From: Ruminococcus sp.
GTDB taxonomy: Bacteria > Bacillota > Clostridia > Oscillospirales > Ruminococcaceae
Direction: 5' to 3'
NCBI GenBank assembly: GCA_015066845.1
Contig: SVNO01000014.1
Location: 1 to 39,593 of the forward strand
DNA: 39,593 bases
Shown: positions 3,981 to 32,627 of the stretch, piece by piece
How the letters are laid out: each line of letters starts with the position of its first letter
How positions within the stretch are numbered: the stretch's first letter is position 1
Notes under the pieces: model-generated
What the model saw: the letters and a program-made list of their open reading frames with translations, nothing else
What the model was told of the DNA's origin: nothing
Database searches by the model: none
Program-made: the position numbers and the translations under genes

Positions 3981-4004
3981 TTCAATCGTTCCTCCATGCT
4001 TGGT

Positions 4005-4035
4005 AAAAACCCTGCCCTGCAAATGCAGAGCAGGG
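4005..4035 (-). terminator. Intercistronic hairpin/attenuator between rbsB and rbsK
   Basis: CCCTGC (4010-4015) and CTGCA (4017-4021) pair with TGCAG (4024-4028) and GCAGGG (4030-4035), with one mismatch. On the minus strand the hairpin is followed by TTTTT (4009-4005). It begins 8 nt after the rbsB stop and ends about 25 nt before the rbsK start. It may partly end transcription or stabilise the upstream rbsB message. Confidence 0.7.
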
Positions 4036-4042
4036 CTTGGAA

Positions 4043-4981
4043 TTATGCGTTGTCCTTGGTCACCAGTGTTACTTCTACAGGGATGGACTTTTCAACAGTT
4101 TCGCCATTCATCAGGCGAATCGCAGTTTTAACGGATGTTGCACCGATAAGGTCGGGCTGCTGTGCGATGGTTGCGCCCATTTTGCCGTCCTTGATGGATG
4201 CGATCGCGTCATCAGTCGCGTCAAAGCCAACGACCAGAATGTTCTTACGGGATGCGGCAATTGCCTCCATTGCGCCGAGTGCCATTTCGTCATTTGCTGC
4301 GAAAACTGCCTTGATGTCGCCGTTAGCCTGAAGCATGTTCTCCATTACAGTCATGCCCTTGGTTCTGTCAAAGTCTGCCGGCTGGCTTGCAACAACTTCG
4401 AGCTTTTCGTCTGCGATGTTGTGGAAGCCCGTGCCTCTGTCGATGGCTGCGGATGCACCGCTTGTACCCTGCAGCTCAGCAACCTTTGCGCCTTCACCAA
4501 CCATGTCCACGATGTACTGTGTTGCAAGCTCTGCACCGAGTACATTGTCCGATGCGATCTGGCAGTCAATGTCTACGCCGTTTACCACACGGTCAGCGGA
4601 AATCACCTTCACGCCCTTGTTCACTGCGTCCTGAACTACGGAAGAAACCGTGTCGGAGTCTACGGGATTGACGATCAGAACGCTGACATTCTTTGCAATC
4701 AGGTCCTCAATATCGCTGACCTGCTTTGCGGAGTCGTCACCTGCGTCTACAACAACGAGCTGTACGCCGTTTTCTGTTGCAGCAGCCTTTGCACCCTCAA
4801 CGAGCGTTACAAAGAACGGGTTGTTCTGTGTGGATACGGACAGACCAATTGAGCCATTGCCCGTGTAATCGGAAGCTGCGCCGTTGTTTTCACCGTCAAT
4901 GGTAATCAGCGCACAACCGGATGAAAATGCCAGAGTTGCAGCACTTACAAAAAGTGCAAATAATTTCTTAATGGATTTCAT
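4043..4981 (-). CDS. rbsB: Ribose ABC transporter substrate-binding lipoprotein
   Basis: Extracellular sugar-binding protein of the periplasmic-binding-protein 4 family (ribose/galactose type). The signal sequence MKSIKKLFALFV ends in a lipobox (LAFSSGC), so it should be a membrane-anchored lipoprotein, as expected for a Gram-positive. The mature part has the family landmarks GLSVSTQNNPFFVTLVEGAKAAA, a DAGDDSAKQVSDIEDLI stretch, NPVDSDTV, and AANDEMALGAMEAI followed by VVGFDATDD. Start at 4981 is set by AGGAGG 7 nt upstream rather than the ATG 11 codons earlier. Ribose is inferred from the neighbouring rbsD and rbsK. Confidence 0.92.
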   Translation of the reverse strand: MKSIKKLFALFVSAATLAFSSGCALITIDGENNGAASDYTGNGSIGLSVSTQNNPFFVTLVEGAKAAATENGVQLVVVDAGDDSAKQVSDIEDLIAKNVSVLIVNPVDSDTVSSVVQDAVNKGVKVISADRVVNGVDIDCQIASDNVLGAELATQYIVDMVGEGAKVAELQGTSGASAAIDRGTGFHNIADEKLEVVASQPADFDRTKGMTVMENMLQANGDIKAVFAANDEMALGAMEAIAASRKNILVVGFDATDDAIASIKDGKMGATIAQQPDLIGATSVKTAIRLMNGETVEKSIPVEVTLVTKDNA

Positions 4982-11006: not shown

Positions 11007-11040
11007 GGAAAAAATAAATTTGTATCGATTTTGTAATAAA

Positions 11041-11173
11041 GCGCGGGACCCGCGCCGGCAGACGCGTTTGATGGTCTTTTGGTGCACAATATACACTTTT
11101 TCGCGGAGCGCGGAGCCCGCGCTGGCAGACGCGTTTGATAGTCTTTTGGTGCACAATATGCACTTTTCGCGAA
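11041..11173. repeat. Tandem 67-bp intergenic repeat
   Basis: Two units start at 11041 and 11108. Each holds a GC-rich palindrome (GCGCGGGACCCGCGC, GCGCGGAGCCCGCGC), then GGCAGACGCGTTTGAT, then GTCTTTTGGTGCACAATAT and TTTTCGCG. In unit 2, GTGCA-CAATA-TGCAC is itself an inverted repeat. The unit is not coding: short frames across it are repeat artefacts. The rest of the gap between the exporter and pnuC shows nothing else. Confidence 0.8.
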
Positions 11174-21320: not shown

Positions 21321-21365
21321 GGCAATACCGCACTGAGCCGCAGACGGTTTTTGTGCGGTATTGCC
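21321..21365 (+). repeat. Palindromic element, copy 1
   Basis: Perfect 13-bp arms, GGCAATACCGCAC (21321-21333) and GTGCGGTATTGCC (21353-21365), enclose TGAGCCGCAGACGGTTTTT, in which CCG-CAGA-CGG is a smaller hairpin. It is the best-preserved copy of a family found five times in the window. Confidence 0.9.
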
Positions 21366-21373
21366 TTAGGTTC

Positions 21374-21417
21374 AAAGGACGGAGTCCTTTGGCGGGTTGG
21401 AGGGTACGCAGTACCCT
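21374..21417. repeat. Pair of short hairpins next to copy 1
   Basis: AAAGGAC-GGA-GTCCTTT (21374-21390) and AGGGTAC-GCA-GTACCCT (21401-21417) directly follow the palindromic element. Both have 7-bp perfect stems with 3-nt loops and a non-coding context. The remaining sequence to 21497 shows nothing else. Confidence 0.65.
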
Positions 21418-21497
21418 TGCAATATAACTCCTCCCTCAAATTATGAAAAAACCATGACCGAATCCTCACATTCTCCACCAAATCTGCAATTTTGGGG

Positions 21498-21526
21498 TTG
21501 TATTTTGTTTATGAAATGTTTACAAT
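21498..21526 (+). promoter_or_regulatory. Promoter of the GH43-esterase gene
   Basis: TTGTAT (21498-21503), 17-nt spacer, TACAAT (21521-21526). Expected transcription start near 21533, at the edge of palindromic element copy 2. Confidence 0.6.
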
Positions 21527-21534
21527 TAAGATAG

Positions 21535-21591
21535 GGCAATACCACGCAATGAGCAGTGCTGCGCCGCAGGCGGTGTTTGTACGGTATTGCC
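21535..21591 (+). repeat. Palindromic element, copy 2
   Basis: Arms GGCAATACCACGC (21535-21547) and GTACGGTATTGCC (21579-21591), centre with GCCGCAGGCGG. It is about 10 nt longer in the middle than copy 1. It would form the 5' end of the mRNA of the downstream gene, 92 nt before its start codon. Confidence 0.85.
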
Positions 21592-21682
21592 ATGGGCAAT
21601 CTTGTTTTGAAAGATGCAGTGCGGTGAATGGAAGAGCACCGGTGCTGCAAGGGAAAAAATCAATGAAAGGGAGGCGTATTCG

Positions 21683-24600
21683 ATGATGAAATTCAGAAAA
21701 CTTGTGAAACGCATTTTCATGTCGATGACGGCAATCGCAGTTCTCGCATCCTCCGCTGCTTGGATGCCTGAACCTCAAACAGCAGAAGCAGCAGCCACCA
21801 CTGTCAGCAATCCGTTCATCTGGGCGGACGTTCCCGACGTGGATGTTATCCGCGTAGGGGACACCTACTACATGGTCAGCACGACCATGTATTTCTCACC
21901 CGGTGCACCCATTATGAAATCCAACGACCTCGTTTCGTGGGAAATCTGCAACTATGTCTATGATGAGTATGCGGACGGGGATGTGCAGAATCTTGCAAAT
22001 GGGAAGCATGACTATGCCCATGGACAGTGGGCAACCAGCCTGCGCTATCATAAGGGTACTTATTATGTATTCTTCGGCAGCTACGGTTCGGGTAAATCCT
22101 ACATCTATAAAACGGATGACATTGAACACGGTACATGGACGCGCAGTGAAATCAATGGCATGTACCATGACGCATCGCTCTTTTTCGATGATGACGGCAG
22201 AAATTACCTCATCTACGGTGGCGGCGGCAACATCGAAATCAAGGAACTGAATGCGGAAATGACCGGCTTTAAGGAGGGCGGCGCATCCAAAACCCTCTTC
22301 CGGACAGGACTTTCCGGACTTGCCGGTGAGGGCGCACATGTGCACAAAATCAACGGTTATTACTATGTGTTCATCATCGCATGGCCTTCCGGCAGCAGAC
22401 GTATTGAAATCTGCTACCGCAGCAAGGAGCTGCTCGGAACTTATGAGAACAAGACCGTGCTTGACTCCGGTCTGGGTACTTACGGCGCAGGCGTTGCGCA
22501 GGGCGGTATTGTCGATACCCCCAATGGCGACTGGTACGGTATGCTGTTCCAGGACCACGGTGCAGTCGGCAGAATTCCCGTGCTCGTGCCCGTGACATGG
22601 CAGAATGACTGGCCGATTATGGGCGTGAACGGTGCAGCACCGCTGACCATTTCCGTGGACGGTACATCCGGTACACCTGCCGGCACCTACCTTGTCCGCG
22701 ATGATGCATTCGATTACAAGAGCAACGACCTCGCGCTGCAGTGGCAGTGGAACCACAACCCTGACAATACCGCATGGTCATTGACCGAGCGTCCGGGCTA
22801 CCTGCGGCTGACTAACAAGACCATTGCAAGCCATCTGCTTAATGCGCGAAATACTCTGACCACGCGCACGGAAGGTCCTTCCTGCAGCAGCGTGATTAAG
22901 CTTGATACCACCGGCATGAAGCCCGGCGACCGTGCAGGTCTTGCTGCATTCCAGTACAATTTCGGTCAGGTCGGCGTTCTGGTGGACGATTTCGGCGCGA
23001 AGAAAGTGTACTATGCCAATAACGGCAATTATTCCGGTGATTCCGATGTCCTGATGAGCAAGGAAAATATCGTACAGCAGGAAGCACTTGCCGGCGATGA
23101 GGTATACCTGAAAGTTGACTTCCAGTTTTCATCCGTAACAAACGGCAGCAGCTCGAATAACATTGACAAGGCGAATTTCTTCTATTCCTATGACGGTGTG
23201 ACATGGACGAAAATCGGTGATACACTGGGCATGACCTACGACCTCAAGCTCTTCACAGGCTACCGCAGCGCGATCTACAGCTACGGCACAAAATCCACCG
23301 GCGGCTATGCGGATATTGATTTCTTCGATTATGAACGCGCAGACTGGAACGAGGGCACGGACGCAGATAAGATGGCAGGTGCAGTCGCTCCCATTGAGCC
23401 GGATGAAAACGGTTATTTCTACCACAGCACCTACGAAAACTCCACCGACAGCTGGACTGGCAGAGGTGCAGCCGCAGTGGAAATGAGCAGCAATGCTGCC
23501 TATGCAGGCAAAAATGCCCTGTTCGTATCCGGCAGAACCTCCGCATGGAACGGCGCGACCAGAGCTCTGAATCCGCAGGCATTCAAGCCGGGCGAAACTT
23601 ACAGCTTCAGCGCGGATGTCATGTTTGACGCTGGCACAGCAACGGATACGTTCTTTATGAAACTCCAGTACACGGACGCAAACGGCGAAACCATGTATTC
23701 CTCCATTGCAGAAGCAACCGTCATCAAGGGCGAATGGACGCAGCTGTCCAATCCGGAGTACACCATTCCGGCAGACGCGAGCGATATGCAGGTTTATCTC
23801 GAAACTGCCGACAGTACGATTGATTTCTATGTGGATGAAGCCATCGGCGCGGTATCCGGCGTTGCACCGGATGGCCCGAAGCCCATTACCTATATCCGCG
23901 GTGATGTCACCTGTGACGGTGTGATCGACGGCTTTGATTTGGCAATGGCAAAGCGCGGCATGACGAAAAAACTCCCGAATGCAATTGCAGAACTTGCAGC
24001 AGATGTCAACGGAAACGGCAAGCCCGATGACGATGATATTGTACAGTTACAGGCATACATTCTCGGACAGATTACCGAATTTACAGCCAAAGCCCCCGAA
24101 AACAACGTAGCCGGTGACTGGGACAATTATGTGGAAACCGCAGCACCGGCAATGCAGACATTCTATGCTGACGCAATTTACAACATGGGCAACACCGCGC
24201 GTCTGCGCAATAAAATTGCCAAGGCGCAAAGCGGAGAAAAGACAACTGTTGCTTACATCGGCGGTTCGATTACCGAGGGCGTGGGCATGGCAGAAACCTG
24301 CTACGCAAAGCGTTCCTACAATTATTTTGCAGAAACATTCGGCACAGGAAGCAATGTATCCTACATCAATGCCGGCATGTCCGGAACATCCTCCGCAGTT
24401 GGTCTGATGCGCGCACAGCGTGACATTCTCAATGCAAGCCCCGATGTCATTTTCATTGAATTCTCGGTCAATGACCATCCGGGAGATACCTACACCAAGA
24501 GCTTTGAGGGGCTTGTGAAAAAATGTCTGATGCAGGAGAACGAGCCTGCGGTCATCATCCTCATCAACCGTTCCAAGGGCGGCTATTCGATGCAGGAGCA

Positions 24601-25222
24601 GATGGCAAAGGTCGGCATGAACTACAATGTACCGATCATCAGCATGGACAATGCTCTGACCAAGGCATTTGACAGAGGCACGCTCACAGCATCCGATTAT
24701 TTCTCTGACGAATACCATCCGCACGAAAACGGCAGTGCACTGATTGCCGATGCGATTGCTTACTATTATCGTCAGGCATTGAAAACAGAGAACATTGCCG
24801 AGAGCTACACCATCCCGTCCACAACAGCATATGGCGATGAATATGCAGACGCATCCATCGTTCCCGTCAGCGAGCTGACAGGACTGAACACCGGTTCTTT
24901 CAAGTCCGACAGAGCCAATACACGCTTTGAGTACGGCTTTACCTACCAGCCGAACACGGGCAATGCGCCGCTGACATTCACCACACAGGGCAAGGGCATT
25001 TATATTGTGTTCAAGTCCAACCAGAATTCCAGCCTCGGCGACCTTGTTGTGACAGTCAATGGCAAGTCCTCGACCGTCAGCGGCAACCGCCAGTATGCAT
25101 GGGGCGGCCCTGAAGCGGAGGTTGCCTACATCCAGAACACTTCCGGCACACTGGAAGTTTCCATGCAGATGAAGAGTGCAGGCAGCGATTTCAATATTTA
25201 CGGTATCGGTGTTGTACGATAA
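21683..25222 (+). CDS. GH43 - CBM22 - dockerin - SGNH esterase (cellulosomal)
   Basis: A 1179-residue secreted multidomain enzyme. In order: signal peptide (to about 36, ending AEA/A); GH43 five-bladed propeller (about 38-340) with WADVPDVDVIRV, YHDASLFFDDDG and GEGAHVHK, carrying the base Asp, the pKa-tuning Asp and the acid Glu; a GH43-associated beta-sandwich (about 360-560); a CBM22/CBM4_9-like module (about 576-727); a type I dockerin (about 737-800: GDVTCDGVIDGFDLAMAKRG, DVNGNGKPDDDDIVQLQAYI); an SGNH/GDSL esterase (about 850-1040: GGSITEG, NAGMSG, FSVND, DEYHPHENG); and a final beta-sandwich. It likely removes xylose or arabinose side chains and acetyl groups from xylan while docked on a scaffoldin. 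The start (21683, or the next codon) has GGGAGG upstream. The exact GH43 and CE subfamilies were not determined. Confidence 0.92.
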   Translation: MMKFRKLVKRIFMSMTAIAVLASSAAWMPEPQTAEAAATTVSNPFIWADVPDVDVIRVGDTYYMVSTTMYFSPGAPIMKSNDLVSWEICNYVYDEYADGDVQNLANGKHDYAHGQWATSLRYHKGTYYVFFGSYGSGKSYIYKTDDIEHGTWTRSEINGMYHDASLFFDDDGRNYLIYGGGGNIEIKELNAEMTGFKEGGASKTLFRTGLSGLAGEGAHVHKINGYYYVFIIAWPSGSRRIEICYRSKELLGTYENKTVLDSGLGTYGAGVAQGGIVDTPNGDWYGMLFQDHGAVGRIPVLVPVTWQNDWPIMGVNGAAPLTISVDGTSGTPAGTYLVRDDAFDYKSNDLALQWQWNHNPDNTAWSLTERPGYLRLTNKTIASHLLNARNTLTTRTEGPSCSSVIKLDTTGMKPGDRAGLAAFQYNFGQVGVLVDDFGAKKVYYANNGNYSGDSDVLMSKENIVQQEALAGDEVYLKVDFQFSSVTNGSSSNNIDKANFFYSYDGVTWTKIGDTLGMTYDLKLFTGYRSAIYSYGTKSTGGYADIDFFDYERADWNEGTDADKMAGAVAPIEPDENGYFYHSTYENSTDSWTGRGAAAVEMSSNAAYAGKNALFVSGRTSAWNGATRALNPQAFKPGETYSFSADVMFDAGTATDTFFMKLQYTDANGETMYSSIAEATVIKGEWTQLSNPEYTIPADASDMQVYLETADSTIDFYVDEAIGAVSGVAPDGPKPITYIRGDVTCDGVIDGFDLAMAKRGMTKKLPNAIAELAADVNGNGKPDDDDIVQLQAYILGQITEFTAKAPENNVAGDWDNYVETAAPAMQTFYADAIYNMGNTARLRNKIAKAQSGEKTTVAYIGGSITEGVGMAETCYAKRSYNYFAETFGTGSNVSYINAGMSGTSSAVGLMRAQRDILNASPDVIFIEFSVNDHPGDTYTKSFEGLVKKCLMQENEPAVIILINRSKGGYSMQEQMAKVGMNYNVPIISMDNALTKAFDRGTLTASDYFSDEYHPHENGSALIADAIAYYYRQALKTENIAESYTIPSTTAYGDEYADASIVPVSELTGLNTGSFKSDRANTRFEYGFTYQPNTGNAPLTFTTQGKGIYIVFKSNQNSSLGDLVVTVNGKSSTVSGNRQYAWGGPEAEVAYIQNTSGTLEVSMQMKSAGSDFNIYGIGVVR

Positions 25223-25245
25223 ATCGCGAAAACAATACAAAAACG

Positions 25246-25275
25246 CTCTCCCTGCCATTGGTGGGGAGAGTTTTT
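25246..25275 (+). terminator. Terminator of the GH43-esterase gene
   Basis: CTCTCCC / GGGAGAG stem with an inner CC-ATT-GG, followed by TTTTT. Confidence 0.85.
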
Positions 25276-25295
25276 GCGGATGGGGTATCAGCCAC

Positions 25296-25324
25296 TTGAC
25301 AAATCTTCCGGTATATGGTATAAT
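25296..25324 (+). promoter_or_regulatory. Promoter of tRNA-Leu
   Basis: TTGACA (25296-25301), 17-nt spacer, TATAAT (25319-25324): perfect consensus, typical for a stable RNA gene. Confidence 0.9.
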
Positions 25325-25356
25325 AGTAATGCTGCATCGGGTGCAGCAATTCTTTA

Positions 25357-25445
25357 GCCGCCGTGATGGAATAGGCAGACATAGCGGACTTAAAATCCGC
25401 CGGAATTCAAACTCCGTACCGGTTCAAGTCCGGTCGGCGGCACCA
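25357..25445 (+). tRNA. tRNA-Leu (anticodon UAA)
   Basis: An 89-nt class II tRNA. The acceptor stem GCCGCCG pairs with CGGCGGC (25435-25441), followed by A and an encoded CCA. The anticodon stem GCGGA/TCCGC closes the loop CTTAAAA, giving TAA at 25391-25393. A long variable arm follows, and the T-arm is CCGG-TTCAAGT-CCGG. It reads UUA codons (and possibly UUG). It has its own promoter and terminator. Confidence 0.96.
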
Positions 25446-25475
25446 AAGCTGCAATGAAGCAGCGGAATCCATACA

Positions 25476-25506
25476 AGAGCTTCTGAGTGATCAGAGGCTC
25501 TTTTTC
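25476..25506 (+). terminator. Terminator of tRNA-Leu
   Basis: AGAGC-TTCTGA / TCAGAG-GCTCT stem with a GTGA loop, followed by TTTTTC. Confidence 0.85.
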
Positions 25507-25554
25507 AATAGAGTGGGGAGCTTAAGCTGCACTCAAAAATTTTTTTCAAAAAAA

Positions 25555-25586
25555 TGAAACCTTTTCCATACCACAGGTGTATAGTA
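25555..25586 (+). promoter_or_regulatory. Putative ECF-type promoter of the sigma factor gene
   Basis: TGAAAC-CTTTT (25555-25565), then 17 nt after the C of TGAAAC a TGTATAG element (25578-25584). The TGAAAC plus T-rich run resembles -35 regions used by SigW/ECF30-like sigma factors, suggesting autoregulation. Confidence 0.5.
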
Positions 25587-25602
25587 TATGAAAAGCTTTT
25601 CA

Positions 25603-25661
25603 GAGCAATCCCGAACAAAGACGATGTGCACAGCCGCAGGCGGTCTTTGTGCAGCATTGCC
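25603..25661 (+). repeat. Palindromic element, copy 3 (degenerate)
   Basis: GAGCAATCCCG at the left and GCAGCATTGCC at the right are decayed arms. The centre AGCCGCAGGCGGTCTTTGTG is almost identical to copy 2. It lies between the putative ECF promoter and the sigma factor start codon (about 40 nt before it). Confidence 0.75.
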
Positions 25662-25702
25662 TTGGAACATTTATCAAATGCAATTGCAGTAGGAGAGAGG
25701 AT

Positions 25703-26179
25703 ATGTCGGACGAACAATTTACCCGAAGTTATCAGATGCATAAAAACAGCGTGTATGCAGTAATTTTCCACTATGTCCGGAATGATGCGGACGCGTCGGA
25801 GCTGCTGCAGGAAACTTTTATGCGCCTGTATACGAACGAAAAGCCCTTTGATAGCGATGAACACGAAAAAGCATGGCTTCTGCGCGTTGCCATCAATCTG
25901 AGCAAAAATCACCTGCGCCGGATGAAATTCAACGCGTATTCCGAAATTGACGAAAACATCCCCGCACCCATTCAGGAGGACTACAGCGACCTGCTTCGCG
26001 CCGTGCATGAGCTGCCGGAAAAATACCGCATCCCGATTCACCTCTTTTATTATGAGGACTATTCCGTGCGGGAAATTGCAGGACTGCTTGGCATTCTTGA
26101 AGCAACCGTCAAAACAAGACTCAACCGCGCCAGAAGTATGCTGAAGAAAAAATTAGGAAAGGAGTACGCTGTGGCATGA
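25703..26179 (+). CDS. ECF-type RNA polymerase sigma factor
   Basis: A 158-residue sigma-70 family protein of group 4. Region 2 is in residues about 8-75 (DASELLQETFMRLY, then KAWLLRVAINLSKNHLRR, the -10-binding helix). Region 4 is in about 98-150 (LPEKYRIPIHLFYYEDYSVREIA, then TVKTRLNRARSMLKKKL, the -35-binding helix-turn-helix). I start at 25703 (MSDEQFT), after AGGAGAG; an upstream ATG would run into the palindromic repeat. It overlaps the next gene by 4 bp (ATGA), the classic sigma/anti-sigma arrangement. The signal sensed is unknown. Confidence 0.92.
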   Translation: MSDEQFTRSYQMHKNSVYAVIFHYVRNDADASELLQETFMRLYTNEKPFDSDEHEKAWLLRVAINLSKNHLRRMKFNAYSEIDENIPAPIQEDYSDLLRAVHELPEKYRIPIHLFYYEDYSVREIAGLLGILEATVKTRLNRARSMLKKKLGKEYAVA

Positions 26180-27339
26180 ATATGAAACAAGATTACCGCA
26201 GACAGACTGATATGTTCTGTCAGACAAAAACACCTGATGCACAGGAAATGCTCGAAGCTGTCAGGCAGGGCAGCGCAACCATCCGTATGAGTACATCCGG
26301 CAGAAAACGCAGACTTCCCATCCGTAAAACACTGGTAGTACTTGCTGCTTGCTTCTCACTGCTCTTCGTCAGTGCACTGACTGCCGGTGCAGCAGGCTAT
26401 GGCCCGTTTGCAGAGCTGTTCCGTAAGGAATTTCAGGATGAAGTTACTGCTGGTATTGTCGAAGAAGGCTATTGGCATGAGATTAACCAGACAGCACAGG
26501 ACGGCGATTTTCAGACAACACTGGTTGCAATTACCGGCGACCAGCTCAACCCCAAGCTCCTGCTGGACATCTATGTGCAGGATGAAACCATCGTGCAGAA
26601 TAATGCGATCCTCGGCGTATGCGCCTATACGCTCGGTCCGGAGGCGTATGAAAACGATCTTGACCAGTACGGTACTTTTGATACACTTGCCTATCAGGAT
26701 GAAAACGACCCGCATCTCTACCATGCCAGCCTGCATTGTGCTTCTGCATGGGTATGCTATGGTGAGGAATTCGTGGTGGATGTGTGCGAAATCATTCTCG
26801 GATTGGATGAGGATTTCACCAAGGAGGATATTACCCTTGCCAATGGCCCGTACCTCAGCCTGAGCGAATATCTGATGAACGAAGAAAACGAAGTACACCA
26901 CACGAATCTTGTATACCGTCTGTCCGTTCCGGAAGAAAACTATGCAGAGGTATCGCAGAATTATTACGGTTATGCCTTTGAACACAATGGTATGCAGTAC
27001 ATCTTCAGTTGGGGTGAATTATCCCACTACAATACAATGCTCTCATTCGAGTTCCATCGTTATGATGCGGACGAAAACATCACACCGGATAATGTTTACT
27101 ATCTGGAAGACGAATTGCAGCAGGATTGGGACAGCTTTGTTGACGCACTCGTGCTGACCGTTGATGGAACGGAGTGCCCTTTGATGGAGGAAATTCCCCA
27201 TTTTGCGTGGATTGATATAGAAGCAGAGTGCGGACAGAAGAACACCTGCTATGCAACCCTGACATTTCCGGCAATTGACTACAATGCCGCTGAGAGCATC
27301 ACGCTCTCTTGCGGTGACACTTCTTACAATTTGAAATAA
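26176..27339 (+). CDS. Membrane-anchored anti-sigma-like protein
   Basis: A 387-residue protein with a short cytoplasmic N-terminus (about 1-48; TPDAQEMLEAVRQGSATI), one membrane span (about 49-71; RKTLVVLAACFSLLFVSALTAG follows RRLPI) and a large external domain. Coupling to the sigma factor through ATGA and this topology suggest it holds the sigma factor at the membrane until a signal releases it. The outer part is beta-rich with paired acidic stretches; it resembles DUF4179-type proteins in layout, but I cannot confirm the family. No zinc anti-sigma motif (HxxxCxxC) is seen. Confidence 0.7.
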   Translation: MNMKQDYRRQTDMFCQTKTPDAQEMLEAVRQGSATIRMSTSGRKRRLPIRKTLVVLAACFSLLFVSALTAGAAGYGPFAELFRKEFQDEVTAGIVEEGYWHEINQTAQDGDFQTTLVAITGDQLNPKLLLDIYVQDETIVQNNAILGVCAYTLGPEAYENDLDQYGTFDTLAYQDENDPHLYHASLHCASAWVCYGEEFVVDVCEIILGLDEDFTKEDITLANGPYLSLSEYLMNEENEVHHTNLVYRLSVPEENYAEVSQNYYGYAFEHNGMQYIFSWGELSHYNTMLSFEFHRYDADENITPDNVYYLEDELQQDWDSFVDALVLTVDGTECPLMEEIPHFAWIDIEAECGQKNTCYATLTFPAIDYNAAESITLSCGDTSYNLK

Positions 27340-27340
27340 A

Positions 27341-27363
27341 GGCAATACCACTGCTTTTTGTAA
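27341..27363 (+). repeat. Palindromic element, copy 4 (left arm remnant)
   Basis: GGCAATACCACTGCTTTTTG keeps the left arm and the T-rich part but lacks the right arm. It sits between the anti-sigma stop codon and the protease start, 23 nt before the latter. Confidence 0.45.
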
Positions 27364-27385
27364 AGAGAATCTGATGGAGGATATT

Positions 27386-29767
27386 ATGAAAAAGTTCAGA
27401 AAAACAGCCTGCCTTCTGGCAGCAGCCATGACAATGACAGCCCTGCCGGTGCTGACGACTCATGCCGAGGAACAGCCGGTGCCCACACTGCACTTTACCG
27501 GACAGCAGGACGGTAAAAGAAAGCCCATGACCTATGCGTCCGATGGCGTGACACAGGAAGCACAGAACGCACAGCTCCCTGCTGCCTATGACCCCCGTCC
27601 TGCCGGCGAGGTAACAAGGGTGCAGAATCAGGACCCATATGGCACATGCTGGGCATTCGGTGCACTTGCATCCCTTGAAAGCTCCATGCAGGAGCGCGAC
27701 CCCTATATCGACCTTTCGGAATGGTATCTGGCTTACTATACCTATTGCGAGGAATTCGGTTATCTGCTTCCGGAATCAGATGGACCGTGTCCGTACCTCT
27801 GGGCGGAAGTCGGTTCATCACTGGACGCGACTATCGGAAGCATTATGAATATCGGCGTAGTTGATGAGGCAGAGTTCCCCTATCTTCTGGAGGAATCCGA
27901 GGACTGGAAGAAGGATCTGCAAACTGTTCGTGCGCAGGCAGATTACCGCGTAACCGATGTTACCTACTTCCCCTATGACATCAACAGCGAGGATTTCGCT
28001 GCACAGTGCAACGCCATGAAGCAGGTGCTCATGGAGGGCAGAGAAATCTGTCTGAGCTATGTTGATGATGATATATACCACGATTATATGAAGCACAGCT
28101 ATTACAATGATGGTATGCCGGCAGAGGATGGAATCTATTATGGCTTCGGTCATGCGGTTTCGGTCGTCGGTTGGGATGATACGTTCTCCAAGGACAATTT
28201 CAACATCACACCGCCCGGTGACGGTGCATGGCTCATCAAAAACAGCTGGGGCACGAGTATGGATGACGGCGGCTATTTCTGGATGTCCTATTATGACGCG
28301 TTAATTTTCGATGTCTTTGCATTGGAAGGTGCACCGGCAGAGGAATGCGGCACGGTTTATATGTACGATGAACGCGGTTATGGCAGCGCGTTCCACAACA
28401 AGGAATACGTCACGATCGAAAGCCCTGCTTCAGCGGAAACAGAGAGCGCGTACATGGCAAATGTTTTTACTGCGCAAACGCATACTTTACTGACCGCTGC
28501 CATGATTGGTACTGCACAGACGGATGAAACCTATGAAATCACCGTCTATACCGGTCTGACGGATGAAACCGACCCGACCTCCGGTACAGTTGTGAACGAA
28601 ACCACGGGCACATTGTCCAACATCGGCTACCATACTGTGGAGCTGTCCGAACCGGTACCGCTGGCTGCCGGTGAGAAATTCTCCATCGTTGTCAAGCTCA
28701 GCGGTAAGAAGGGCGTACACCTTACCGGCGAAAATGGCGAGATTTCACACCAATACTATTCTGACGGCAGAGAGGAGCTGGGCTATTTCGGTGCTACCAC
28801 GGTGGAAATGGTGGAGAATCGTCCGGCAAATACCAGCTTTATCAGTCTCGATGGTGAGGAATGGAACGACACCACACAGTACACATATTCTGAAGAATCA
28901 TCCATGACGCGCGATGAAATTCTGGAGTTCTACGGTGATGACTGGGGCTTGCCGGAGGGCGGCACATTCACATGGGTGAATGAAGAACGCTATGGCAGCG
29001 TCTGCGTCAGAGCAGTGACGCACGATTTGGACACCGTGCTCTTTTCCGAATATGCGCCGGAACTGAAAATCGGTACAGAAATCAGCCTTAGCTCTCCTGC
29101 GAAAAAAGCCATCATGGTATCCATCAACGGCGGCGAATTTCAGCCCTATGAGAGTCCGATCGTATGCAATGAACCGATGACAATTTCCGCGCATGTGGAG
29201 GGCAGCGACAAAACCTACACAGAATCCTACGAGCTGCGTCAGGCAAAGATTCTGAACATGACATGGGCAGAGCAGATTGAGTATGAGGACTATTATTACA
29301 CCACATATGATATCGCATTCACAGAAACCGCTGAAAACCACTTTGAGGGTACTGTGCATTACTGGGGAAGCAGCGAACCGTCAATGATGATTATTTCGCC
29401 GGCACAGGTGAACTATGAGGGAGGAGAGCTGCAAAAGGGCACTTACTTCCACATTGATACAAAGGGCTATGATGGTATACCGTACGTTTTCAAAGTATCC
29501 GCAGATGGCTGTGTGGACACGGAATATGTGCTCCATCTTGTGGAAGCAGAGCCGTTGAACAACGGTGACGTGGATAACAACGGTGTAGTGGATGCAAAGG
29601 ATGCCGCAGCAATTCTGATTTATGCAGCAGCCGTTGGTTCTGGTCAGACACCGGAGCTGCCCGATGAGCAGTGGCTCGACCGCGGTGACGTAGTATATAA
29701 CGAAGCTGTTGACGCTTCTGATGCCGCAGCAGTGCTCCAGCGCGCAGCGGAGGAAGGCTCAAAGTAA
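27386..29767 (+). CDS. Papain-like (C1) cysteine protease with dockerin
   Basis: A 793-residue secreted protein. The signal peptide ends near THA/EE. A C1A peptidase domain (about 55-320) shows the full active site: Cys88 in YGTCWAFGALAS, His256 in GFGHAVSVVGWD, Asn286 in WLIKNSWGTSMDDGGYFW. A lectin-like beta-sandwich follows (about 350-500), then further beta-domains, then a dockerin (about 725-793; GDVDNNGVVDAKDAAAILIY and GDVVYNEAVDASDAAAVLQ). The protease would be carried on the cellulosome, perhaps to process or turn over its proteins, or to attack plant or competitor proteins. It lies 46 nt after the anti-sigma gene, so it may share the ECF operon. GGAGG 6 nt upstream sets the start at 27386. 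Confidence 0.92.
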   Translation: MKKFRKTACLLAAAMTMTALPVLTTHAEEQPVPTLHFTGQQDGKRKPMTYASDGVTQEAQNAQLPAAYDPRPAGEVTRVQNQDPYGTCWAFGALASLESSMQERDPYIDLSEWYLAYYTYCEEFGYLLPESDGPCPYLWAEVGSSLDATIGSIMNIGVVDEAEFPYLLEESEDWKKDLQTVRAQADYRVTDVTYFPYDINSEDFAAQCNAMKQVLMEGREICLSYVDDDIYHDYMKHSYYNDGMPAEDGIYYGFGHAVSVVGWDDTFSKDNFNITPPGDGAWLIKNSWGTSMDDGGYFWMSYYDALIFDVFALEGAPAEECGTVYMYDERGYGSAFHNKEYVTIESPASAETESAYMANVFTAQTHTLLTAAMIGTAQTDETYEITVYTGLTDETDPTSGTVVNETTGTLSNIGYHTVELSEPVPLAAGEKFSIVVKLSGKKGVHLTGENGEISHQYYSDGREELGYFGATTVEMVENRPANTSFISLDGEEWNDTTQYTYSEESSMTRDEILEFYGDDWGLPEGGTFTWVNEERYGSVCVRAVTHDLDTVLFSEYAPELKIGTEISLSSPAKKAIMVSINGGEFQPYESPIVCNEPMTISAHVEGSDKTYTESYELRQAKILNMTWAEQIEYEDYYYTTYDIAFTETAENHFEGTVHYWGSSEPSMMIISPAQVNYEGGELQKGTYFHIDTKGYDGIPYVFKVSADGCVDTEYVLHLVEAEPLNNGDVDNNGVVDAKDAAAILIYAAAVGSGQTPELPDEQWLDRGDVVYNEAVDASDAAAVLQRAAEEGSK

Positions 29768-29797
29768 GGGTAATACCCAAAATCATTTTCTCCTGAT

Positions 29798-29831
29798 GAG
29801 CAGTATCGCAGAAATGCGGTACTGCTCTTTT
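29798..29831 (+). terminator. Terminator after the C1 protease gene
   Basis: GAGCAGTATCGCA-GAAA-TGCGGTACTGCTC hairpin (one G-T pair), followed by TTTTAT. Confidence 0.8.
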
Positions 29832-29835
29832 ATGC

Positions 29836-29864
29836 TTGATTTTGCAGGGGAAATGTGGTATAAT
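29836..29864 (+). promoter_or_regulatory. Promoter of the S41-like peptidase gene
   Basis: TTGATT (29836-29841), 17-nt spacer, TATAAT (29859-29864). Confidence 0.8.
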
Positions 29865-29906
29865 GGGGGAGAATGATTCGCAAATTGCCCGAAGAAAGGA
29901 CTCCCC

Positions 29907-31370
29907 ATGAAACACATTCTCCCCATCCTTATCACCATCGCCCTTTTTGCCGCGCTGGTGCTCTGCAATTTCTACTACATCCCTGCCTACATCCCCGAAG
30001 CGGTGAGCCTGCTGTTTGCGCTGGTGCTTCTGCTGCTCAACATCCGCCTTATCGCCAAGGGCAGAACCAAAGCCCCGAAAATCATCATGACAACCGTCAG
30101 TGTTCTTGCGGTCTGCTGTGGATTTGCGGCAACCTATCTGTCCCCCTACTGGAATTCCATCGTCTACCTGCAATCTCCTGCACAGAAGGTTGCTTACAGC
30201 GAAATCCTCACCAGTGAACAGGCTTTGCAGGATATTGCTACCGCCAGAAAATACCTGACAAAGGTGCATCCAGCCGCATTGGGCGGTTTGCCGCAGAATG
30301 CCGCCGAAATGTTTGATGAAATCGAACAGACTGTCCGTGCGCAGGAATCCGTTACTGTCAGTGAGCTGCAGCGTGCACTGTCCGCAGCCGTTTCATGCTT
30401 TCAGGACGGGCATACCAATGTATACAGCAACTTCCCCGAATACCGCTATCTGAAGTGCATCTACGCCCATAATGAGGCAGGTGACAGGATGGCAGCCGTC
30501 AACGGCATCCCCCTCAGAGAGCTGTATGAGCAGAACAAGGCATATTTCAGCTATGACGAAGAAGCGGAGGATTACGGTTATATCGCCTTCCGCAACATCT
30601 TCACACGTCCGGATGGTCTTGCATTTCTCAATATTCCCATCGAGAACGGCGTTGTCTATACTTATGAGCATCCTGACGGAACGACAGAGGATGTCGTGGC
30701 ATATGATGAGGACTTCCTTGTCTATGCGGAATACGCGGCATACAACCAGATTCCCGACAGCACGGAGGAAACCTCGTTCGTGTCCTACGAGATTGACACG
30801 GCGCACGATCTTGCCGTGCTCACACTCAACAAATGCATCTGTAATGAGGAATACCGCAATGTACTGCACGAGATGTTTACCGCAGTCAAGGAACAGGGGA
30901 TCACACGGGTTGCCGTGGATTTGCGGGAAAACGGGGGAGGTTCGTCCGCAGTCGGAACGGAATTCATCCGGTATCTGCCCGTTGACCGCTATTGGGGCTG
31001 GGCGGCGGCGCACAGAATGGGCTGCCTGAATCTGAAAATCAAGGCAATGCAGGTGGCGAACAAGAAGCACAGCGACCTGACCTTTGACGGGGAGGTGTAT
31101 GTGCTGACAAGCGGGATAACCTACAGCTCGGCAATGGATTTTGCAATGTATATCAAAGACAACAAGCTGGGGCAGACTGTCGGCGAAGCACCGCTGAATG
31201 ATCCGCGCGGCTATGGTATGGTGACGCAGTTCAGAATGCCCCATTCCGGATTGAACCTGCAAATTTCTACCGCAAAATGGTCCAGAATTGACGAGAGCAA
31301 TCCCACCCGTTTCATTGAACCTGACATCCCGTGCGATGCGGAGGAGGCATTGGAAATGCTGAGGAGATAA
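29907..31370 (+). CDS. Membrane-anchored S41-like peptidase
   Basis: A 487-residue protein with two to three N-terminal membrane spans (to about 75) and an external S41 domain. Landmarks: SCFQDGHTNVYSNF (the DGHT motif), LRENGGGSSAVGTEFI and VLTSGITYSSAMDFA, with the candidate nucleophile Ser in TYSSA. The position where C-terminal processing proteases carry the catalytic Lys reads GEAPLNDPRGYG, so it belongs to the Lys-less S41 group, and activity is less certain. No PDZ domain is evident. AAAGGA lies 7 nt before the ATG. It is monocistronic with its own promoter. Confidence 0.82.
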   Translation: MKHILPILITIALFAALVLCNFYYIPAYIPEAVSLLFALVLLLLNIRLIAKGRTKAPKIIMTTVSVLAVCCGFAATYLSPYWNSIVYLQSPAQKVAYSEILTSEQALQDIATARKYLTKVHPAALGGLPQNAAEMFDEIEQTVRAQESVTVSELQRALSAAVSCFQDGHTNVYSNFPEYRYLKCIYAHNEAGDRMAAVNGIPLRELYEQNKAYFSYDEEAEDYGYIAFRNIFTRPDGLAFLNIPIENGVVYTYEHPDGTTEDVVAYDEDFLVYAEYAAYNQIPDSTEETSFVSYEIDTAHDLAVLTLNKCICNEEYRNVLHEMFTAVKEQGITRVAVDLRENGGGSSAVGTEFIRYLPVDRYWGWAAAHRMGCLNLKIKAMQVANKKHSDLTFDGEVYVLTSGITYSSAMDFAMYIKDNKLGQTVGEAPLNDPRGYGMVTQFRMPHSGLNLQISTAKWSRIDESNPTRFIEPDIPCDAEEALEMLRR

Positions 31371-31386
31371 AAATTTTCCAAAAAGG

Positions 31387-31416
31387 TGTAACACTTTGTT
31401 CTCCTGTTCCGTTTGT
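31387..31416 (+). promoter_or_regulatory. Putative ECF-type promoter of the small dockerin protein gene
   Basis: TGTAAC-ACTTTG (31387-31398), then 17 nt after the C of TGTAAC the element CGTTTG (31410-31415). It has the same layout as the region before the ECF sigma gene. Confidence 0.4.
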
Positions 31417-31439
31417 ATTGATAGAGGAACAAATTGCAA

Positions 31440-31482
31440 GGCGATACCGCGTGAACCGCAGGCAGTTTTTGCGGTACTGTTC
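31440..31482 (+). repeat. Palindromic element, copy 5 (degenerate)
   Basis: Left arm GGCGATACCGC (31440-31450), centre GTGAACCGCAGGCAGTTTTT, right arm GCGGTACTGTTCC. It lies 57 nt before the start codon of the next plus-strand gene. Confidence 0.7.
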
Positions 31483-31538: not shown

Positions 31539-32627
31539 ATGAAACACATACTTGCCGCAGCGATCTCCCTCACTCTTTTAGCAGGAATGCTCCCTGCATC
31601 CGTATCCGCCCTCGAAGAACCGATACCTCCCTACATCATTGAAGCTGACAACGTGATGTTTACGTCCGATGTGGACTCGACCATGTTCAATCTCATTGTC
31701 AGCAGCAATGAGGAGTCCTCCGTGTTCTTTATGAACAACGGCTGTGCGTTTATGCCTTATGAGGATGGACGGTTTGTCGTTTCCACAAGGGAGTACTATG
31801 AGAAAATTGTGGAATGCACAAACGGACATTTCCACTATTTCTATCCCGTGGTCACCAATTACACGGTGGATGTGGAAAACGGCGAAATTTCCGTGCAGTA
31901 TATGGGGGAAAAGAGCTGGTATTCCGAGAAGGAGATCAACGCAGAACGCGAAGTACTCGAAGCCCGTGAAGGTGCTGTTTCGTGTTATGACGTATATGCC
32001 GGAGAACCCGATGATGTGCTGAATAAGAACATCTACTACACCTTCGTCAACGGTCAGCTGCGCGGCGATGAGAACGGCTACGACAGCTACATCATGAATG
32101 TCTATAAGGATTACGGAACGGATTCCTATTTCTGCGTCAACTACGAATCAAGGGACGTACAGCAGGACATGTACGGCAACGAGCCGCAGCGCGTTACCGC
32201 ACTGGAAATGGACATTTCCTCCCTGATCACGCATTTTTTCACCTCAAGCACCTGTGACGGCAATCTGGAGATGCCATCTCCCGATATCAAGGAATTATCC
32301 CGTATCGCTGCCCCCATGAACAGCGATGAGCCGTCATTGGAGGACGGCGGTTCGAGCTTTCCACTGAATGTGGTGGTGGATGACGAAAAAACCTACCGGC
32401 TGACGGTGGATGAGGGGATATTCCACATCCGGAAAGACAAAATCATGGGGGACTGCAATCTGGACGGGAAACTCTCCGTACTCGATGCCATCATGCTGCA
32501 AAAATACCTCCTGTGCAATGGCACACTGACCGCCCCTGAATGCGCGGATGTGCTGCCTGACGATGTCATCGACGGATTCGACCTTGCAATGCTGAAACGC
32601 AGACTGATGGAAATCGGCGCGCTCTGA
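31539..32627 (+). CDS. Secreted dockerin protein of unknown function
   Basis: A 362-residue exported protein. Signal peptide MKHILAAAISLTLLAGMLPA to about SVSA/LEE. The central part (about 30-290) is rich in Tyr, Asn and acidic residues, beta-like, and unassigned; no catalytic motif is apparent. A type I dockerin covers about 304-360 (GDCNLDGKLSVLDAIMLQKY and VIDGFDLAMLKRRL, the second loop shortened), so it should be displayed on a scaffoldin. AAAGGATG lies about 10 nt upstream. It could be a structural or binding subunit. Confidence 0.82.
   Translation: MKHILAAAISLTLLAGMLPASVSALEEPIPPYIIEADNVMFTSDVDSTMFNLIVSSNEESSVFFMNNGCAFMPYEDGRFVVSTREYYEKIVECTNGHFHYFYPVVTNYTVDVENGEISVQYMGEKSWYSEKEINAEREVLEAREGAVSCYDVYAGEPDDVLNKNIYYTFVNGQLRGDENGYDSYIMNVYKDYGTDSYFCVNYESRDVQQDMYGNEPQRVTALEMDISSLITHFFTSSTCDGNLEMPSPDIKELSRIAAPMNSDEPSLEDGGSSFPLNVVVDDEKTYRLTVDEGIFHIRKDKIMGDCNLDGKLSVLDAIMLQKYLLCNGTLTAPECADVLPDDVIDGFDLAMLKRRLMEIGAL

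Follow-up and report, generated by a model that had tools for sequence, protein, structure and literature searches.

A Ruminococcus family of miniature transposable elements with IS5-type ends and a predicted strand-specific hairpin fold

The 39,593-nt contig SVNO01000014.1 of Ruminococcus sp. (assembly GCA_015066845.1), referred to below in its full length as the window, carries between 21 and 32 kb several short palindromes upstream of plus-strand genes, which the original prediction described as a five-copy repeat, possibly taken up as a shared element of 5' untranslated regions (UTRs). According to our analysis, the window copies are short and, for the most part, worn descendants of a miniature inverted-repeat transposable element (MITE) of about 172 bp, probably mobilized by an IS5-type system, whose full-length form is a single strand-specific hairpin; we assign this reading a probability of about 85%. 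Statistical comparison of many copies indicates that the full-length element is kept as one end-to-end hairpin, more stable on one strand than on the other, via compensatory changes and G·U pairs. This pattern points to a folded RNA as the object of selection or, with lower probability, to single-stranded DNA.

The full-length element has 17-bp ends GGCAAYACCGCACAAAG in inverted repeat, and many clean-edged copies of it are present in named genomes. Among the matches listed, 64 out of 90 elements of named genomes are flanked by an exact 4-bp duplication, TTAA in 32 of them, compared with a mean of 16.6 and a maximum of 26 identical 4-bp flanks when the flanks were shuffled; duplications of 2, 3, and 5–9 bp were each seen in at most two of these 90 elements. 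Similarly, 22 out of 30 elements of R. callidus have a 4-bp duplication, as do six out of 20 further full-length copies, mostly older. The short forms retain both ends and lack the middle, and would arise by internal deletion: by inspection, the 33-bp form is the product expected if the full element is shortened by deletion from one TTGTGCG repeat to another. Within single genomes, forms of 71, 81, and 82 bp are each found repeatedly, and thus some short forms may themselves move. For six out of 20 copy-holding regions of relatives, both flanks could be matched in the sampled part of the source genome, and the element is absent from the latter in all six cases; one of the six regions holds a sub-family B form alone, and diverged flanks make the exact junctions unreadable. 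Judged by its sequence, the family qualifies as a bacterial MITE whose ends are of the IS5 type, and the suggestion that the window harbors a spreading MITE-like repeat is supported by the terminal inverted repeats, the 4-bp duplications, the matching ends of an IS5-family element, and the element-free syntenic regions.

The claim that the palindromes are confined to 21–32 kb is true inside the window alone, as the 2.21-Mb genome contains 363 sites resembling the 13-base arm with at most two mismatches (each arm counted), compared with 34 sites for the reversed pattern. Search with end profiles yielded 78 elements at E ≤ 0.05, the threshold for all element counts reported here, in 1.244 Mb of the source genome including the window; a first pass over 0.69 Mb at E ≤ 0.3 gave 54 elements, one of them in a gene. 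This sample was partly picked from match-bearing contigs, and hence its density does not represent a genome average. Although about 88% of the DNA was called as coding, 77 out of the 78 elements are intergenic, and the same profiles gave no matches at E < 1 on reversed sequence.

Beyond the source genome, a covariance model found copies in at least 18 out of 38 genomes of the genus, the source genome being counted; these counts are lower bounds, since at most 73 candidates per genome were scored. A pattern search detected copies in 15 out of 61 genomes, again including the source genome, all from the same genus. Right ends with at most three mismatches number 324 in R. callidus and eight in R. 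bicirculans. The scan of named genomes produced at least 118 stretches, mostly from Ruminococcus or uncultured Oscillospiraceae, with one probably chance match in Flavobacterium; a scan of the named genomes for exact 28-base matches was negative, as was a scan of plasmids for the element. A full-length copy lies at positions 4001–4172 of locus L073, an unannotated phage record from human feces (MT835572.1), and four viral contigs (L222–L225) contain end matches. Partial model matches in genomes G012 and G005 were rejected, as most are copies severed by contig ends.

A candidate partner was identified in R. callidus, where a Pfam search revealed a truncated IS5-family transposase (L229) bounded by the same ends, its flanks being unequal; according to a protein search, its N-terminal 108 residues have relatives in four out of 38 genomes of the genus. 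Among these, L230 has an interrupted frame and TTAA/TTAA flanks, L231 encodes a 325-aa transposase with the DDE_Tnp_1 (PF01609) and DUF772 (PF05598) domains and has GTAG/GTAG flanks, the second end having been read by eye, L232 has a full-length frame and both ends with unequal flanks, and L233 has one end found. The ends of this partner insertion sequence (IS) read GGCAAYACCGCAYA in most copies, and two out of four two-ended copies have a 4-bp duplication. Among the matches listed, most plasmid relatives of the R. callidus transposase fragment are annotated as IS5 family. The IS at L231 (847–1824) appears to be situated within an interrupted gene, with open frames on the same strand and GTAG on either side.

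The agreement of ends and duplications strongly suggests that an IS5-family transposase moves the MITE. The partner transposase or a close relative would mobilize it in trans, and the movement would consist of a double-stranded DNA cut and insertion at AT-rich 4-bp sites, with TTAA preferred. By inspection, the MITE and the found IS have about 14 terminal bases in common and share no sub-terminal sequence; restricted to these first bases, the similarity suggests that the MITE borrows the ends and is not a deleted copy of this IS. Another parent IS is possible. Two putative autonomous elements, at L176 and L210, were rejected, as on inspection their long spans comprise ordinary genes and no recognizable transposase; at L176 (4025–5465), such genes are bracketed by two inverted short copies.

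To compare the strands, the orientation of each full copy was set by its side hairpin close to the right end, a mark in the sequence that does not depend on folding energy. In the alignment A2 of 29 chosen full-length copies, from which N-containing and several near-identical copies were excluded, the forward strand is more stable than its reverse complement in 29 cases out of 29 (on average, -86.4 vs. -60.9 kcal/mol). The same holds for all 20 further copies, selected by top model score and having a nearest identity of 0.79–0.93 to the first set (-93.1 vs. -65.1), and for three out of three copies from R. callidus. In the alignment of 29, 96.8% of cells are paired, compared with 87.8 ± 0.4% with shuffled partners and 38–48% with slid ones. 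Changes on both sides occur in 22 out of 49 pairs, 19 of them among the 30 inner pairs, which lie beyond the terminal repeats. Pairing of the terminal repeats is expected of any transposon; that of the inner helices, as well as the strand asymmetry, is not.

Two comparisons took the phylogeny of the copies into account. When the observed changes were placed randomly on the tree (200 runs), the mean forward energy was -64.7 ± 2.2, compared with -85.9 observed. When neutral change was simulated on the tree with both strands treated alike (300 runs), pairing at the 30 inner pairs reached 78.8 ± 2.2%, compared with 96.3% observed; the inner helices contain three A·C cells vs. 39.8 ± 11.1 simulated and 109 G·U cells vs. 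137 simulated, and the observed energy difference between the strands, -25.5 vs. -12.4 ± 2.2 simulated, was reached in none of the 300 runs. In the further 20 copies, the inner helices have 68 G·U and four A·C cells. In nine loci with full copies, only tRNAs reached Rfam gathering scores and nothing did so over the element; at a permissive threshold, one copy gave three matches, all far below gathering scores.

Several observations weigh against this reading. As regards the fold, the 20 further copies were taken by top model score, and the copies are related by descent, with recombination possible among some of them. Stability in excess of the simulated value is seen on the reverse strand as well (-60.9 vs. 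-50.9 ± 2.3), as would result from Watson–Crick compensation or a DNA-level process. Prediction of the structure from the forward strand gives G·U an advantage over A·C: a strand-neutral definition of pairs gives 156 G·U and 67 A·C cells, with two column pairs, probably out of register, contributing 45 of the A·C cells, and a structure predicted without G·U pairs gives G·U and A·C cells in a ratio of 11:3 (p = 0.057). Under the strand-neutral definition, Watson–Crick pairs changed to G·U and A·C in a ratio of 35:16 (p = 0.011). As regards mobilization, the source genome has no matches to PF01609, PF05598, or the partner protein, and hence no autonomous copy was found there; the MITE-rich genomes of the genus have no matches to the partner protein; three other DDE_Tnp_1 matches (L226–L228) lack convincing MITE ends; the overlap with the found IS is limited to the terminal bases; and no exact 4-bp duplication flanks the window copies.

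The folded strand might function as single-stranded DNA, for instance at the replication fork or during a step of movement specific to one strand, in the manner of REP sequences (repetitive extragenic palindromes) and their Y1 transposases. DNA hairpins tolerate G·T pairs, too, and the side hairpin on one arm is reminiscent of the hairpins that Y1 transposases read. The 4-bp duplications and the IS5-family DDE transposase with matching ends, however, point to double-stranded cut and paste, and we consider a role as single-stranded DNA rather unlikely, while granting it a small share of the probability.

It is unlikely, too, that a process at the DNA level suffices to preserve the complementarity of the arms, with no selection for the fold. 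Correction by template switching or gene conversion is known for quasi-palindromes, and old insertions, recognized by decayed duplications, fold as well as young ones (12 vs. 28 copies, 10 out of the 12 old ones being from the score-chosen set). Such a process would also explain the excess stability of the reverse strand and the paired changes observed in the terminal repeats of some old insertions (L392, L388, L386). However, it treats the strands alike and should yield Watson–Crick pairs, and is therefore weakened by the prevalence of G·U over A·C cells in the inner helices of both sets of copies.

Selection on a folded strand could also act through the genes downstream, if the repeats had been recruited before start codons as cis-acting 5' UTR elements functioning in the sense mRNA of the next gene. 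The strand-specific fold would agree with this, and all four real window copies are, as originally stated, in the same orientation as the next gene. The family as a whole behaves differently. Among the 72 elements with a called gene on either side, the fractions in tandem, divergent, and convergent regions are 0.625, 0.25, and 0.125, respectively, compared with 0.649, 0.243, and 0.108 of intergenic bases; thus, convergent regions, too, are occupied about as their length predicts. Gene starts were taken from a simple codon-usage caller and not from annotation, and elements whose ends look alike were left out of the orientation counts (five out of 30 in R. callidus). The named-genome sample retains 67 elements, 12 at locus edges, and that of five relatives comprises 30 loci, 14 at contig edges; these samples and R. 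callidus overlap, as R. callidus scaffolds occur in two of them and the relatives G004 and G010 belong to the named-genome sample as well. In tandem regions of the source genome, 29 elements have the same orientation as the genes and 16 the opposite one (p = 0.07; 20:11 for right-end-bearing copies, p = 0.15), the corresponding ratios being 11:20 for the named-genome sample, 7:9 for R. callidus, and 4:3 for the five relatives. A consistent orientation toward genes is not a trait of the family.

A signal in favour of 5' UTR elements comes from source-genome copies that bear a right end and lie no more than 120 nt from a start: with the window excluded, 20 out of 26 point at the start (p = 0.009), this distance being one of five tried. 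Near starts, two-ended copies (6:3) and left-end copies (11:6) show nothing clear, and a further 287 kb of this genome contain four left ends and no right ends. Elsewhere, a slight lean to the same strand is seen within 100 nt (13:10 in the named genomes, 9:6 in R. callidus, and 9:5 in the five relatives), and named genomes show 17:17 within 150 nt. Moreover, antisense copies are folded as stably as sense ones (nine and five copies, respectively). The excess near starts is, in our view, an unexplained peculiarity of the source genome and not evidence of a general role, and a shared 5' UTR element as a property of the family is distinctly improbable. The original prediction had held that copies scattered without regard to genes, together with arms lacking covariation, would mark a plain mobile repeat; such scatter was largely observed, and the covariation is strong and strand-specific, so that the second half fails.

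Returning to a transposon with a selected fold, the selected molecule would be an RNA from the more stable strand, e.g., a hairpin, either stable or processed by RNase III, within transcripts that traverse the element. As the orientation of neighbouring genes matters little, selection would act on copies still moving or on the tolerance of insertions, probably via lineages of such copies and not via regulation of particular neighbours. In genomes of this kind, palindromes upstream of genes for dockerin proteins, sigma factors, and esterases are not necessarily regulatory. Predictions of hairpin transcripts from bacterial MITEs generally start from one sequence at a time. In the present case, many natural copies, including those from the isolates R. 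callidus ATCC 27760 and R. bicirculans 80/3, indicate that the fold of one strand is maintained, and with this set of copies the question of whether MITEs carry functional RNA becomes directly testable.

A bolder possibility, which we put forward tentatively and consider doubtful at present, is a DNA transposon that is a strand-specific structured RNA from end to end, under selection, with its folded core passed between different transposon ends. A clearly similar folded core is found inside other terminal repeats (GGAAKCACCGATGAAATC) at about 1497–1669 of L422 and about 1768–1939 of L423, and L436 holds, at about 150–320, a hairpin element whose apical part is similar but whose ends (AGACTTYCTCGGAAACTGGAGAAGTGTC) are of a third kind; a scan for GGAAKCACCGATGAAATC-type ends gave 28 places in 18 out of 38 genomes, few of them convincing. 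If true, the element would owe its success to the RNA, which might, e.g., render insertions tolerable to the host.

Within the window, four of the five proposed copies, all on the plus strand, were confirmed by the right-end profile, trained on source-genome copies that include those of the window. Copy 1 (21321..21365, E = 2.5e-12) is a 45-bp internally deleted MITE which indeed has perfect 13-bp arms and retains the side hairpin CCGCAGACGG; copy 2 (21535..21591, E = 1.2e-10) and copy 3 (25604..25661, E = 6e-12) are internally deleted forms of 57 and 58 bp, respectively, the latter with a decayed left arm; and copy 5 (31440..31482, E = 2.4e-5) is a degenerate MITE of about 43 bp. With no window copies in training, the covariance model found copies 1, 2, and 3 at E = 1.1e-7, 1e-6, and 2.1e-6, respectively, and copy 5 at no better than E = 0.19. 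The claimed half copy 4 (27341..27349, plus strand) is a bare 9-mer GGCAATACC, missed by both profile and covariance searches of the window, and is unsupported as a copy. That the palindromes arose by chance in ordinary intergenic DNA has a negligible probability, for, despite the weakness of copy 4 and, by the covariance model, of copy 5, no right-end profile match at E ≤ 0.01 occurred in 100 Markov-resampled windows and arm-like sites greatly exceed the reversed-pattern control, which refutes chance for copies 1–3.

A stable hairpin, originally proposed for the repeat in general, is predicted for copy 1 (-35 kcal/mol, z = -7.6 relative to shuffles); the values are modest for copies 2 (z = -2.4) and 3 (z = -1.6), and copies 4 (z = -0.5) and 5 (z = -0.1) fold no better than shuffled sequences. 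The minus-strand match of copies 1–3 to the covariance model is nearly as good as the plus-strand one, and so these short copies cannot display the strand preference of the full element. A possible highly reduced extra copy, terminator-like in having a hairpin followed by TTTT, lies at 29799..29826 on the plus strand (covariance model E = 0.0017, fold z = -7.05); its stem resembles the MITE ends, and it was missed by the end profiles. It may be a reduced copy turned terminator, or simply a terminator.

The placement at 23–92 nt before start codons holds for copies 2, 3, and 5 (91, 41, and 56 nt before called starts, respectively); copy 1 is 317 nt away. The identities of the downstream genes agree with Pfam: copies 1 and 2 precede a gene with GH43, GH43_C2, CBM_4_9, dockerin, and GDSL esterase domains (21683..25222), copy 3, a gene for an extracytoplasmic function (ECF)-type sigma factor (25703..26179), and copy 5, a dockerin protein gene (31539..32627), all on the plus strand; a C1 peptidase gene follows the unsupported copy 4. 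In Rfam, a tRNA alone exceeds the gathering threshold in the window. Two other repeats were observed there: a G+C-rich one at 11040–11167, with two adjacent copies 67 nt apart and similar copies at about 1670–1820 of L001, and a 33-nt tandem repeat with seven units within a called gene at 1–330.

Compared with known systems, the family resembles bacterial MITEs such as ERIC, NEMIS/Correia, RUP, Nezha, and QMITE, which are likewise short, non-coding, and intergenic, with inverted terminal repeats and target duplications; we found no description of a Ruminococcus MITE family in the literature searched. The family shares with REP/REPIN sequences and their RAYT transposases short length, intergenic location, palindromic structure, and high copy number, yet the MITE has target duplications and paired terminal repeats, and the partner found is of the DDE type (Y1 transposases were not searched for); its duplications argue against assigning it to REP/REPIN. 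The likeness to IS5-family insertion sequences consists in matching terminal bases, the 4-bp duplication, and a DDE_Tnp_1 and DUF772 transposase in the partner, whereas the MITE itself has no transposase gene and shares little beyond its extreme ends with the partner found. As with structured RNAs from Rfam, there is a long covarying hairpin on one strand, and in the nine loci no known Rfam family covers the element at the gathering threshold. Hairpin-forming transcripts of bacterial MITEs have been described or predicted in earlier reports (PMC3733652, PMC10969869). The present family differs from the known bacterial MITEs in its occurrence in Ruminococcus and its kin, its IS5-type ends with 4-bp duplications, and its strand-specific fold kept by compensatory change.

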